Shown: positions 42,881 through 48,820 of the stretch, one piece after another
Layout of the letters: each line of letters starts with the position of its first letter
How positions within the stretch are numbered: the stretch's first letter is position 1
Source: Saprospiraceae bacterium
GTDB lineage: Bacteria; Bacteroidota; Bacteroidia; Chitinophagales; Saprospiraceae
Assembly: GCA_025055285.1 (NCBI GenBank)
Contig: JANWXM010000023.1
Span: 1-59,776, forward strand
Length of the DNA: 59,776 nucleotides
Direction of reading: 5' to 3'
Notes under the pieces: model-generated
What the model was told of the DNA's origin: nothing
The model's input: only the letters and a program-made list of their open reading frames with translations
Databases searched by the model: none
Made by a program: the position numbers and the translations under genes

Positions 42881-43507
42881 ATGGAAAAAAGGCAATTGTT
42901 TGTTTCGAATAGCCAAGAATCCATCCGAATATTTGAGAAAGATTGGATGGAAGCACTTTCGAAGACCCACTTTACTGTACCTCTATTTATTTATTTGCCA
43001 GTGGTAGGTTGTTGCATATGGTTCTCGGAGCGCCATTGGTCTTCTGTAGGCTTGTTTTTAGGCGGTTTACTCGTATGGACGCTGACAGAATACATATTGC
43101 ATCGTTTCGTATTTCACTGGGTATTGCCTGGCCGATGGGGAGCCCGAATTCACTTCATTATTCACGGCATACACCATGACTACCCTAATGACCGCTTGCG
43201 GTTAGTAATGCCGCCTGCTGTCAGTATACCTCTCGCTTTCTTATTCTTTAGCGGTTATCGGTGGCTGTTGGGCACGCCTACGGTGTATCCATTTTTTGCA
43301 GGACTTGTTTTTGGTTACCTCTGTTACGATATGATTCACTACGCCCTCCATCATCTAAACCTAAAGCATCCCCTCTTACAACGGCTTAAGCACCACCATA
43401 TGTTACACCATTTTCAGCAACCGGATAAAGGCTTTGGAGTAAGCTGCCCATTTTGGGATTTTATTTTCAAAACTACCTTTGTGTTGCATAAAAAATCGTC
43501 GCCGTGA
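42881..43507 (+). CDS. FA2H-like fatty-acid 2-hydroxylase (sterol desaturase superfamily)
   Basis: 208 residues from ATG 42881 (a TTG lies three codons earlier). Four or so membrane helices carry a di-iron histidine set: HRFVFH (74-79), HFIIHGIHH (91-99), HYALHH (153-158) and HHHMLHH (171-177). The segment YILHRFVFHW, HGIHHDYPNDRLRLVMPP, GYLCYDMIHYALHH and the end KGFGVSCPFWDFIF follow the catalytic domain of eukaryotic FA2H/Scs7, which puts a 2-OH on the N-acyl chain of ceramide. The N-terminal cytochrome b5 domain of the eukaryotic enzyme is absent, so a separate electron donor is needed. It is the first gene of the cluster, 51 bases before spt. Confidence 0.85.
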   Translation: MEKRQLFVSNSQESIRIFEKDWMEALSKTHFTVPLFIYLPVVGCCIWFSERHWSSVGLFLGGLLVWTLTEYILHRFVFHWVLPGRWGARIHFIIHGIHHDYPNDRLRLVMPPAVSIPLAFLFFSGYRWLLGTPTVYPFFAGLVFGYLCYDMIHYALHHLNLKHPLLQRLKHHHMLHHFQQPDKGFGVSCPFWDFIFKTTFVLHKKSSP

Positions 43508-43558
43508 AAACGTAACGCACTCTCCTTATGTCTTTCACCTCTTAAAGAAAAGTTTCAC

Positions 43559-44788
43559 ATGAATCAGATGCTACGCGCTCGCACAGAGGCATATAAAGCC
43601 GCTGAGGAAACTCGGAAAGCAGGAGTATACCCTTATTTTCGCGTCATTGAGTCGGAACAAGATACTGAAGTGCGCATTGGAGGCAAGTCAGTGCTGATGT
43701 TTGGCTCAAATTCTTACTTAGGCCTGACTAACCACCCCCGAATAAAGGAAGCAGCAAAAGCAGCAATTGACCGCTACGGTACAGGCTGTGCAGGGTCGCG
43801 CTTTTTAAACGGTACACTCCGCATCCACATTGAGTTAGAAGAAGCCCTGGCTGACTACTTAAAACGCGAGGCCGTGCTGTTATATAGCACGGGTTTTCAG
43901 GCAAATTTAGGTGCGCTTGCGCCATTGGTCTCGCGGCACGACTATGTCTTCATTGACGAGCGCGTCCATGCCTCCATCATAGACGCTAGCCGGCTCTGCT
44001 TCACCAACAGGGTGCAGAAATTTAAGCACAACAACATGGAGAAGCTAGAGCAGCTCGCCAGATATGCTTCCGAGACAAATGATAAGAGCCTGAAATTCAT
44101 TGTAGTAGATGGAATCTTTAGTATGGAAGGCGACATCGCCCCGCTGCCTGAGATTGTGCGTATTGCACGTCAGTATAACTGTGTTGTCGTGTGCGACGAT
44201 GCCCATTCCATTGGTGTCATAGGCGAACTGGGTATTGGCACTGGCTCGCATTTTGGCCTACACGAGGAAGTGGATATTCAGATAGGTACATTTAGTAAAT
44301 CTTTGGCAGCTTTGGGCGGTTTTATTGCCTCTTCACGCTCAGTAATTGAGTACTTAAAACACCATTCTCGCTCCCTTATCTTCAGTGCTAGCATGACGCC
44401 CGCAGCGGCGGCGAGTGTGCTAGAGGCGCTTAAAATTTTACAAGAAGAACCTCAACGCATCGAACGCCTGTGGGAGAATACACGGTATGCAATGAAGCTT
44501 TTCCGAGAGGCGGGCTTCGAGATCGGAAACACACAGTCGCCCATTATTCCTCTGTACGTGCGGGACAACATGAAGACTTTCAAATTGTCTAAATTGGCCT
44601 TCGATGATGGCGTATTCATCAATCCAGTGGTTTCGCCCGCCGTACCCAGTGAAGAATCGCTTATTCGCTTCTCGCTCATGGCTACTCACACGTTTGAGCA
44701 AATTGAACGCGCAGTGGATATTTTGTATCGCCATGCTAAACCCTTAGGTATCCTCGACTACCAAAAAGTGCAAGCAGAAGCGATATGA
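43559..44788 (+). CDS. spt: Serine palmitoyltransferase
   Basis: 409 residues, a class II PLP-dependent alpha-oxoamine synthase. It condenses L-serine with a long-chain acyl-CoA to 3-ketodihydrosphingosine, the entry step to sphingolipids. [10 protein letters not shown] and [15 protein letters not shown] near the N-terminus, [13 protein letters not shown], the PLP-ring Asp/His in [11 protein letters not shown] and the Schiff-base Lys247 in [13 protein letters not shown] are seen. The GSRFLNGT segment and YPYF N-terminus match bacterial SPT better than KBL or AONS. Downstream genes overlap (ATGA), so it leads a coupled block. Confidence 0.93.
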
Positions 44789-45915
44789 TTCAAGTGGAGC
44801 AAATAAATACTGCTCACAAAAGGTTGTTGCGGTCATTTATTGACTTCCCACACGACTTGTATGCGAATGACCCCAACTACGTACCTATGCTCTACTTAGA
44901 GCAAGAAGCTTTGCTCAACCCTAAGAAATCTCCTTTTTTCTTGCACTCGTCGGCGGCATACTTTCTAGCTTTTAATGGCAAACGTCCCGTAGGTCGTATC
45001 GCAGCAATCTTGAATCGCAACCATATAGCGTTTACTGGGCGCAAAGAGGGTTTTTTTGGATTTTTCGACACTGTCAACGACGAAGGCGTAGCGAAAGCCC
45101 TCTTAAGTACTGCCGAAGAGTGGCTGCACAGCCAAGGGATGGAAAAAATTATCGGGCCAACCAATTTTTCTACTAATGAGACCTGCGGTTTGTTAGTAGA
45201 AAATTTTGAAAGGCCTCCTATGATCATGATGCCCTACAATGCTCCATACTATGCAGCTCTCCTTGAAACGCAAGGCTTTCAGAAGTTCGTTGACCTGTTG
45301 TGCTATTGGCTAACTCCAGACATGATGCCGAGTTCCATCTTGGAGATGAGCCAGAACCTCGAAAGCCGTTTGGCAGCGCGTGGGATCATCATTCGAAAAA
45401 TCAACATGCGACACTTTGAAGAGGAACTGAACAAATTCCTGCCAGTATACAATGCCTCTTGGGCAGAAAACACGGGGTTTGTACCCATGACAGAGGCCGA
45501 AATTCGTCAAATTGCTAAAGACTTGCGCCCTATAATCAATCCGGAGCTAGTTTTCTTTGCCGAAAAGGACGGTAAAACAATTGGCGTTTCCCTTACCATT
45601 CCCAACATTAACGAAGTGCTTATCCGCCTTAAACGAGGTCGTCTATTTCCTTTTGGCATTTTTCACCTATTGTTTGGCCTTCGCCGCATTCGCACTGCTC
45701 GCGTAATTGCTCTAGGCACTTTGAAAGAATACCGTCGCTTGGGTATAGATGTTTGTTTTTACGTCCGTACGCTGCAGGCTGGTATCCGACAAGGCTTCAT
45801 CGCTGGAGAAGCTTCTTGGATACTGGAGAATAATGTCGTAATGAATCGCGCGTTAGAGCACATCGGAGCACACGTTTACCGTCGATATCGATTATATGAG
45901 AAAAATATTTCATAA
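44785..45915 (+). CDS. GNAT-fold protein, candidate bacterial ceramide synthase
   Basis: 376 residues, no signal peptide and no clear membrane helix. The N-terminal part ([19 protein letters not shown]) and [13 protein letters not shown] core, and the later [23 protein letters not shown] acyl-CoA-binding-like loop, point to a GNAT acyltransferase family protein. Bacterial ceramide synthase (bCerS) from Caulobacter, as known from published work, is a protein of this general class and is unrelated to eukaryotic CerS. The gene overlaps spt by 4 bases (ATGA) and is followed 3 bases later by the desaturase. N-acylation of the long-chain base is thus a strong positional inference, not proven. Confidence 0.75.
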
Positions 45916-47915: not shown

Positions 47916-48381
47916 AAACCTGAGAAGTAGCTGGCAGGCATGGGTTTTGTGCGGCTTTGGCATAGGATGGCTGCCACTAGCACCAGGAACTTGGGCTGCA
48001 GCTCTAGCAGCCTTAATTGCTGCAGGGATAGAGTGGTTAACGCCTACTTTCTTTCCCTTAGTTGTGGCGCTAGCCGTCGGAGCAGCGTTAGGAGTAGGCT
48101 TAGCAAACATGTCGCGTATCGAAGCAGTGTGGGGGAAAGACCCAGCTCCAGTGGTATTGGACGAGATGGCGGGCATGTGGGCAGCCCTATGGGTTGCTCC
48201 GCCAGAGTGGTGGGCTTGGGTAGCTGTCTTTTTTTTATTTCGCTTTTTTGATATCGTAAAACCTCTCGGTATCCGACATCTTGAGAAACTGCCTCATGGC
48301 TGGGGCGTTATGTTAGATGATATTGCGGCGGGGATTTATGCTTGCATATCCTGGCAAGTTTTTTGGTGGGCGTATCGTTAG
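47902..48381 (+). CDS. pgpA: PgpA-family phosphatase
   Basis: 159 residues with four membrane helices. GFGIGWLPLAPGTWAA at 18-33, VVLDEMAGMW at 84-93 and FRFFDIVKPLGIRHLEKLPHGWGVMLDDIAAG near the end are the conserved PgpA sequence. PgpA removes the phosphate of phosphatidylglycerophosphate. Its start overlaps the SDR gene by 14 bases, so it is part of the sphingolipid operon. It may therefore dephosphorylate a phosphosphingolipid headgroup precursor instead of, or as well as, PGP. The family is also used in Bacteroides inositol-lipid synthesis as far as I recall. Confidence 0.88.
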   Translation: MNGSKNLRSSWQAWVLCGFGIGWLPLAPGTWAAALAALIAAGIEWLTPTFFPLVVALAVGAALGVGLANMSRIEAVWGKDPAPVVLDEMAGMWAALWVAPPEWWAWVAVFFLFRFFDIVKPLGIRHLEKLPHGWGVMLDDIAAGIYACISWQVFWWAYR

Positions 48382-48385
48382 ACAT

Positions 48386-48820
48386 ATGCGTTCAGAGGGC
48401 TTTCTCCTAGTCAAGTATGCACTTAGTTCCTTAAGTGCTACAGTAGTGGATTTCAGTTTATTCTATCTTCTCTTTTCGGCTACTTCACACGCAGGAAGTG
48501 CTACCTTTGGAGGCTTCATTGTAAGCGCTGTGGTTGCCTTCGTTGTTCAGCGACATTGGGTGTTCCAATTATCCGAAGCAATTTCTTGGCAGAGGCTAGT
48601 CTCTCGCTACGGTATAGGAGTAGCTCTAGGCCTAGGACTAAACGTAGGCGGTGTATGGCTGCTTTGCGATGTGGGCGGTTGGTCGCCTTGGCTATCTCGA
48701 ATTAGCGTAGCGCTAGTTGCGTGGTACATAGTGTTTTTATTCAATCGAAACTTCGTTTTTACCTCGTCTGATACCTTGTTGAGACGTCTTTCCTCACGCC
48801 TCAACATTAGGGCTGAGTAG
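48386..48820 (+). CDS. GtrA-like membrane protein
   Basis: 144 residues from ATG 48386, four membrane helices (about 10-28, 36-55, 72-92, 102-122). LVKYALSSLSATVVDFSLFYLLF and the end LFNRNFVFTS are the GtrA signature. GtrA-like proteins are thought to help flip lipid-linked sugars across the inner membrane. An earlier in-frame ATG at 48317 would overlap pgpA by 65 bases; the chosen one leaves a 4-base gap. As the last gene of the sphingolipid operon it could assist glycosylation or transport of a sphingolipid, which is inference from location. Confidence 0.85.
   Translation: MRSEGFLLVKYALSSLSATVVDFSLFYLLFSATSHAGSATFGGFIVSAVVAFVVQRHWVFQLSEAISWQRLVSRYGIGVALGLGLNVGGVWLLCDVGGWSPWLSRISVALVAWYIVFLFNRNFVFTSSDTLLRRLSSRLNIRAE

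Follow-up and report, generated by a model that had tools for sequence, protein, structure and literature searches.

The operon and its ceramide core

The window analysed here is a 59,776-nucleotide stretch from an uncultured Saprospiraceae bacterium (assembly GCA_025055285.1, contig JANWXM010000023.1). At positions 42881-48820 it holds seven open reading frames, all on the + strand, which a sequence-only reading had described as an operon with the look of a complete pathway to unsaturated, 2-hydroxylated ceramides. The operon and its spacings were borne out. It encodes, in order, an FA2H/Scs7-type fatty acid 2-hydroxylase without a cytochrome b5 domain (42881..43507; 208 amino acids, aa), a serine palmitoyltransferase (SPT; 43559..44788, 409 aa), a GNAT-fold N-acyltransferase that is a candidate bacterial ceramide synthase (CerS or bCerS; 44785..45915, 376 aa), a desaturase of the sphingolipid Delta4-desaturase (DES1) type, here called DES (45919..46926, 335 aa), an extended short-chain dehydrogenase/reductase (SDR) that is a candidate 3-keto reductase (CerR; 46923..47915, 330 aa), a PgpA-family lipid phosphatase (47902..48381, 159 aa) and a GtrA-like membrane protein (48386..48820). 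A gap of 51 bases separates FA2H from SPT; SPT and GNAT overlap by 4, GNAT and DES lie 3 apart, DES and SDR overlap by 4 and SDR and PgpA by 14, and a gap of 4 precedes the GtrA ATG at 48386. This GtrA start is the most likely one, judging by the homologue in locus L052; the mechanical reading frame begins at 48317 and would overlap PgpA by 65. Pfam and NCBIfam profile searches of each protein agreed with the families first named.

The operon is real and conserved; the known pathway of bacterial ceramide synthesis forms its core, to which two eukaryote-like modifying enzymes have been added. The closest named relative is the metagenome-assembled genome Saprospiraceae bacterium SKYG121 (L092), a congener of the host whose DES is 88% identical. 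Reading frames and gene order are kept between the two despite saturation of synonymous sites in six genes and near-saturation in PgpA. Five further contigs (L093-L096 and L105) have the same gene set; the arrangement is therefore more than chance. Nonsynonymous divergence (dN) from L092 was lowest, among the seven genes, for DES (0.076) and SPT (0.080). We propose that the products of the operon are ceramides with a double bond in the long-chain base and a 2-hydroxyl group on the acyl chain, a reading to which we assign a probability of about 0.58.

The operon SPT scored 2.8e-192 against NF047600 (638.7 bits, 1.3 under the cut-off of 640). In the PDB it matched SPT 3a2b/8guh of Sphingobacterium at 3e-150 and other enzymes at 4e-91 or weaker, which places it closest to SPT among the alpha-oxoamine synthases. 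An identity as cysteate acyltransferase was rejected, as 28eh matched at only 5e-67. The GNAT protein exceeded the cut-off of PF00583 (1.7e-4, 22.3 bits, cut-off 20.7), and the SDR matched PF01370 (Epimerase) at 4.5e-35. Searches with the window SPT as query gave a full-score class of at least 477 bits and a second class of 337-392 bits (41-46% identity), bounds that were set after the score gaps had been seen. Linkage was surveyed in 28 full-score SPT loci of other Bacteroidota (L233-L260; 18 from genomes with DES and 10 from genomes without), fetched from 30 such loci with the window and its congener G040, apparently the same genome as L092, excluded. A GNAT homologue adjoined SPT in 27/28 and an SDR homologue lay near it in 23/28; among the exceptions for SDR, the stretches of L242, L250 and L251 stop at contig ends, and L243 and L246 had no recognisable SDR. 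DES was found in none of these 28 stretches (0/28), and FA2H lay within the SPT cluster in five (L235, L237, L238, L242 and L250), all from genomes with DES. Along its length the GNAT protein also shares 38% identity with YghO in Escherichia coli plasmid records (e.g. NZ_MG591698.1:9846-10967), and E. coli is not known to produce ceramides.

The same three genes occur outside the phylum. Plasmid 1 of Rubrobacter radiotolerans carries homologues of SPT (44% identity to the window), GNAT (36%) and SDR (33%) in this order (L274:6707-10074); the trio adjoins CRISPR genes and is followed by a gene of the lipoteichoic acid (LTA) synthase family. A Roseomonas plasmid has a Caulobacter-like cluster of acyl carrier protein, pyridoxal phosphate (PLP) enzyme, diacylglycerol (DAG) kinase, CDP-alcohol enzyme, two LptF/LptG proteins, a GNAT homologue (36% identity), nucleotidyltransferase, acyl-AMP ligase and an SDR whose identity of 26% is weak. 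Homology to CerS and CerR was judged through the Roseomonas and Rubrobacter proteins, and linkage to SPT from the loci surveyed. Work on Caulobacter crescentus assigns the N-acyltransferase CerS to CC_1154 and the reductase CerR to CC_1164, with a step order that is possibly inverted (PMC11324152). The window resembles that system in its SPT, CerS-family N-acyltransferase and CerR-like SDR. It differs in that SPT, GNAT and SDR are contiguous, in that the operon lacks genes for both acyl carrier protein and acyl-AMP ligase, and in the addition of DES and FA2H; acyl hydroxylation in Caulobacter is ascribed to the DesA-family protein CC_0202, whereas the window has an FA2H-like gene. We read the SPT-GNAT-SDR trio as a putative bacterial ceramide core in which GNAT would be CerS and SDR would be CerR. 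Genes of the spt, cerS and cerR type have been reported as not close together in sphingolipid-producing Bacteroidota (PMC11334938); in contrast, they stand close together in the Bacteroidota loci studied here.

Two eukaryote-like modifying enzymes

DES scored 2.2e-26 against FA_desaturase (PF00487) and, in its N-terminal part, 5e-12 against Lipid_DES (PF08557), the sphingolipid Delta4-desaturase domain (45.5 bits, cut-off 23). It has three histidine boxes (H86-H90, H123-H127 and H257-H261) whose histidines are invariant in 18 homologues, and its predicted model reached a pLDDT of 89. PF08557 discriminates, since the host genome has one match to it and two to PF00487, and since it matched 0/14 control genomes as against 5/14 for PF00487. 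The DES1-type assignment of the sequence-only reading holds, with PF08557 over its cut-off and carotenoid-enzyme models far under theirs; the best of the latter gave 27 of 350 and 16.5 of 475 bits, and a carotenoid enzyme was rejected. The likeness to eukaryotic DEGS1/DES1 lies in domain architecture (PF08557 plus PF00487, three histidine boxes), and the window DES differs in being bacterial and in standing inside an SPT operon. As a viral comparator, no DES was confirmed in a scan of IMG/VR contigs. Animal DES2 has both desaturase and hydroxylase activity, as do some plant relatives, and PF08557 probably does not separate the two; one explanation would be that DES is a C4-hydroxylase with DES2-like activity, yielding phytoceramide instead of an alkene. 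No sequence feature tested favours this, however, and 2-hydroxylation already has its own gene. We regard it as very improbable.

The hydroxylase matched FA_hydroxylase (PF04116) at 1e-17. In a PDB sequence search yeast Scs7p was its only match (1.9e-30, 41% identity over 177 aligned residues), and in a fold search only Scs7p chains fell below an E value of 1 (TM score 0.78-0.79 on the query, root-mean-square deviation 2.1-2.2, 39-40% identity), the next match having an E value of 1.7; the query model had a pLDDT of 75.9. Thirteen histidines are invariant in 12 aligned homologues, and 12 of these, all but H30, align to histidines of Scs7p, among which we presume the metal-binding histidines of FA2H/Scs7 to be. 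The protein therefore belongs to FA2H/Scs7 by hydroxylase-domain sequence, fold and histidines, as the sequence-only reading had supposed. The fused cytochrome b5 domain of the yeast and animal enzymes was not found in it, PF04116 being the sole domain found; plant FA2H members are not known to have this domain either. The resemblance to Scs7p thus covers the fold of the hydroxylase domain and the 12 shared histidines, and the substrate is a predicted one. A carotenoid hydroxylase identity was rejected, as no carotenoid-enzyme model was among the profile matches.

Distribution and possible substrates of the desaturase

The DES family is widespread in Bacteroidota and usually unlinked to SPT. 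PF08557 was found in 40/395 genomes sampled across the phylum and relatives of the window DES in 18/100 genomes of the family Saprospiraceae, the host included in both counts. A scan of GTDB contigs, from which the best 80 of at least 582 DES relatives were kept, gave FA2H, SPT, GNAT, SDR, PgpA and GtrA together with DES in 6/80 (L092-L096 and L105), and among a further 40 DES loci (L052-L091) only L052, from the same genome as L092, had the cluster. DES had been presented as one of two added genes, and it is indeed a member of a conserved operon, but it is common in Bacteroidota and mostly stands elsewhere. Two gene orders were seen: GNAT-DES-SDR in the window, L092 and L105, and GNAT-SDR-DES in L093-L096. 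L105 is labelled Thermoanaerobaculia (Acidobacteriota) but is probably a misbinned contig, because it has the same RecR and universal stress protein neighbours that lie 5' of the operon in the window. A masked or unknown stretch falls within the end of its DES.

In the host's family DES goes with SPT. Genomes without DES were represented by 41 of the 82 such genomes of the family (picked by eye, mostly for completeness) and 15 from the phylum sample. Full-score SPT, second-class SPT and neither were found in 22, 28 and 7 of 57 sampled genomes with DES, and in 10, 1 and 45 of the 56 without. Within the family, either SPT class was present in 17/18 genomes with DES and 9/41 without (Fisher 1.6e-7), and full-score SPT alone in 14/18 and 8/41 (Fisher 6.2e-5); over all groups the figures for either class were 50/57 and 11/56 (Fisher 8.6e-14), all three values being uncorrected for relatedness. 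The second class could have been cysteate acyltransferase in the 28 genomes with DES that have it, an identity that was rejected, as the two members tested were nearer to SPT 3a2b (2e-122 and 1e-112) than to 28eh (1e-65 and 6e-64). GNAT was present in 9/12 and SDR in 10/12 second-class loci (L261-L272, one from a genome without DES), so that with the two tested members nearest SPT this class also looks like ceramide synthesis. A separate set, 49 genomes searched among those of the 80 best DES loci, gave full-score SPT in 15 (the six operon genomes, L097, two Chitinophaga and six Mucilaginibacter), the second class in one and neither in 33.

Several observations weigh against the proposed ceramide reading. 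No SPT match accompanies DES in the stretches of 74 of the 80 best-scoring loci, some of which stop at the end of a contig. A PDB fold search of DES left its subfamily unsettled, returning general desaturases and AlkB at 13-17% identity, and a fold search of BFVD returned general desaturases at 11-15%. Cytochrome b5 was not found in the host by a profile search that matched only 1/14 controls, and the electron donor would probably differ from the eukaryotic one. The operonic DES nests inside a clade of Cytophagales, and the 33 genomes with DES and neither SPT class, 31 of them Cytophagales (Spirosoma, Hymenobacter, Arcicella, Aquirufa and kin), all carry a cysteate acyltransferase at least 60% identical to the host's. 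The host itself has this homologue of cysteate-C-fatty acyltransferase (G000:C22:139698-140801, equal to L275:5699-6802), which matched 28eh at 1e-171.

The scattered placement of DES would fit an acyl-lipid desaturase that serves general membrane lipids and is co-transcribed with the ceramide genes by chance, PF00487 being a broad family. Around non-operon DES (113 loci) there was no match at 1e-8 to the cluster queries or to cysteate acyltransferase, and the 14 largest recurrent neighbour families each reached 17 loci at most. They include a PF01553 (lysophosphatidate-type) acyltransferase, which in 17 Spirosoma-group loci (e.g. L068:7561-8379) is encoded on the opposite strand at a distance of about 1.1 kb from the unlinked DES, so that a lipid gene does recur near DES in one group. 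This account is nevertheless very unlikely in our judgement: PF08557 is over its cut-off and has a single match in the host, DES is associated with SPT within the family, and its place is conserved in the operon clade.

The phylogeny of DES (66 rows, a quick IQ-TREE run with SH-aLRT support only) put the seven operonic copies on one side of a branch with support 93, under the mark of 95. Moving outward, they were joined by L097 (96), by six Cytophagales rows (98) and by the Spirosoma and Hymenobacter groups (99), and other rows of the host's family fell in three further places. One capture of DES from a Cytophagales-like lineage explains this placement. A deep subfamily (L016-L019, L022 and L024) was well separated (support 100, branch 1.43); its members L022 and L024 scored 69 and 65 bits on PF08557. 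In this subfamily HNEHHD is followed by an IPG motif reminiscent of eukaryotic DES, and from this motif the subfamily may be nearer to the eukaryotic enzyme.

Another possibility is that DES acts alone or mainly on the capnoid base of sulfonolipids (N-acyl-capnine), and that its place in an SPT operon is a recent capture with little effect on ceramide. The Cytophagales origin of its closest non-operon relatives points this way, as does the cysteate acyltransferase of the 33 genomes lacking both SPT classes. The enzyme was identified by the 28eh matches of the host protein and of that of G344 (1e-161). It was also present in 6/7 sampled genomes with DES and no SPT, the exception being G019 (89% complete); G466 and G517 in this count look like one genome. 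Neither SPT class was found in 33/49 and 7/57 genomes with DES, which bears on the substrate range of the family; the host itself has SPT. Some likely long-chain-base synthase accompanies DES in 56/57 sampled genomes and in 49/49 of the best-locus set. Ceramide as the setting of DES, as first suggested, is backed by the SPT operon, while the nearest non-operon copies come mostly from genomes that have cysteate acyltransferase and lack full-score SPT. Yet cysteate acyltransferase does not predict DES, being nearly as common where neither DES nor SPT is present (33/40; Fisher 0.057), and it matched 0/113 of the non-operon DES loci. The operonic DES copies are flanked by genes of the SPT pathway, and a full-score SPT is also present in the genome of their sister L097. 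On these grounds we think a mainly capnoid substrate unlikely. N-acyl-capnine is the main rival substrate, and a Delta4-unsaturated, 2-hydroxylated ceramide remains the leading candidate product. The host may make sulfonolipids besides ceramides, given its cysteate acyltransferase. With regard to sulfonolipid synthesis by cysteate-C-fatty acyltransferase (PMC10191378; PDB 28eh), the likeness to that system is the presence of such an enzyme elsewhere in the host and an analogous long-chain base; the difference is that cysteate acyltransferase was unlinked to DES in every locus examined and that the operon synthase is of the SPT type.

Inositol-lipid genes, proposed pathway and implications

PgpA matched PF04608 at 1.2e-36 and GtrA matched PF04138 at 1.1e-14. 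In L093-L096 and L105 the DES/SDR pair is separated from PgpA by a gene for myo-inositol-phosphate synthase (MIPS). Genes for a CDP-alcohol phosphotransferase, a DUF4833 protein and a PAP2_3 protein then follow in L093-L096; the cluster genes of L095 were assigned by Pfam and those of the other loci by tblastn, and L105 stops at a contig end. Among the 28 SPT loci surveyed above, MIPS was present in 12 and PAP2_3 likewise in 12. Work on Bacteroides thetaiotaomicron describes BT_1522 as AUR1-like, BT_1523 as a CDP-DAG-inositol enzyme, BT_1524 as carrying a GtrA motif but showing no lipid phenotype, BT_1525 as a PgpA-family protein, most probably a phosphatidylinositol (PI)-phosphate phosphatase, and BT_1526 as MIPS (PMC9246714). 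On that description the window shares the PgpA-family and GtrA genes with BT_1522-BT_1526, and L093-L096 share MIPS, CDP-alcohol phosphotransferase and PAP2_3 beside SPT; the B. thetaiotaomicron SPT, BT_0870, lies outside its cluster. The host, unlike these relatives, gave no match to the L095 MIPS or PAP2_3 protein in searches run without a positive control, which leaves the MIPS and AUR1-like PI-ceramide synthase pair of BT_1522-BT_1526 present in the relatives and unmatched in the host. Most simply, the PgpA-GtrA pair of the window is a remnant of a ceramide-plus-inositol cluster. The two had been taken as members of the ceramide pathway; they are in the operon, but the layout fits the known inositol-lipid cluster and not ceramide synthesis as such. 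PgpA has a single match in the host genome and, with MIPS and PAP2_3 unmatched, may serve phosphatidylglycerol synthesis.

In the pathway that we propose, SPT would condense serine and an acyl thioester to 3-ketosphinganine, by homology to the solved enzymes. The CerS-like GNAT protein would N-acylate and the CerR-like SDR would reduce the 3-keto group, in either order. DES, from its PF08557 domain and linkage, would introduce a Delta4 double bond into dihydroceramide, and FA2H, from its likeness to Scs7p, would hydroxylate carbon 2 of the acyl chain. These last two steps would require O2, with the use of which the two haem-copper oxidase subunit I genes of the host are consistent, and an electron donor that is not a recognisable cytochrome b5. 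The PgpA and GtrA genes would have been inherited from the ceramide-plus-inositol cluster, MIPS being missing from the operon. Gene content, linkage, family membership and shared occurrence are observed; the individual reactions are predicted, as is where the double bond and the hydroxyl group are placed. The proposal draws on the families and structures of the enzymes, the conserved core trio, the place of DES within the cluster both in the window and in six contigs, the association of DES with SPT, the restriction of FA2H in SPT clusters to genomes with DES, and a DES that is as conserved as SPT. Described at the outset as complete, the pathway is so for the ceramide moiety and not for a head group, as the inositol genes of the relatives were unmatched in the host; nor was a cytochrome b5 found.

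Bacteroidota sphingolipids are described as saturated dihydroceramides. Searches of an open-access library listed no paper on this operon, on FA2H from bacteria or on a DEGS-type desaturase from bacteria, and the word 'desaturase' did not occur in the available portion of one review (PMC6148460). The combination of a ceramide core with DES and FA2H is new, and the wide bacterial spread of a PF08557 desaturase is, in our view, more surprising. We tentatively raise a wider scenario, possible though still doubtful, in which a native Bacteroidota DEGS-type family desaturates both capnoid and sphingoid bases at Delta4, the ceramide operon of one Saprospiraceae lineage took up a copy from Cytophagales, sphingosine-type 2-hydroxylated ceramides are also bacterial, and the family is a possible stock of the eukaryotic enzyme. 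If DES functions as its family membership predicts, sphingolipids thought typical of eukaryotes might be made by such bacteria, and many Bacteroidota could form the Delta4 double bond by which animal ceramide differs from dihydroceramide, which would change how lipidomics tells host sphingosine from microbial sphinganine. The chemistry of DES and FA2H could then be studied in a compact prokaryotic system, and the origin of eukaryotic DES would become testable. Strains with both DES and SPT exist in Chitinophaga and Mucilaginibacter, and the question is therefore directly testable.

On its 3' side the operon is followed by a gene for LpxC fused to a FabA-like domain and then by an LpxA-type acyltransferase gene. 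Elsewhere in the window, 17577-21722 (-) encodes a protein of 1382 aa that matches DUF4397 11 times and, weakly, a secretion tail, and a MauG-type di-haem peroxidase gene adjoins an MbnP-family gene at 54646-56588 (-).

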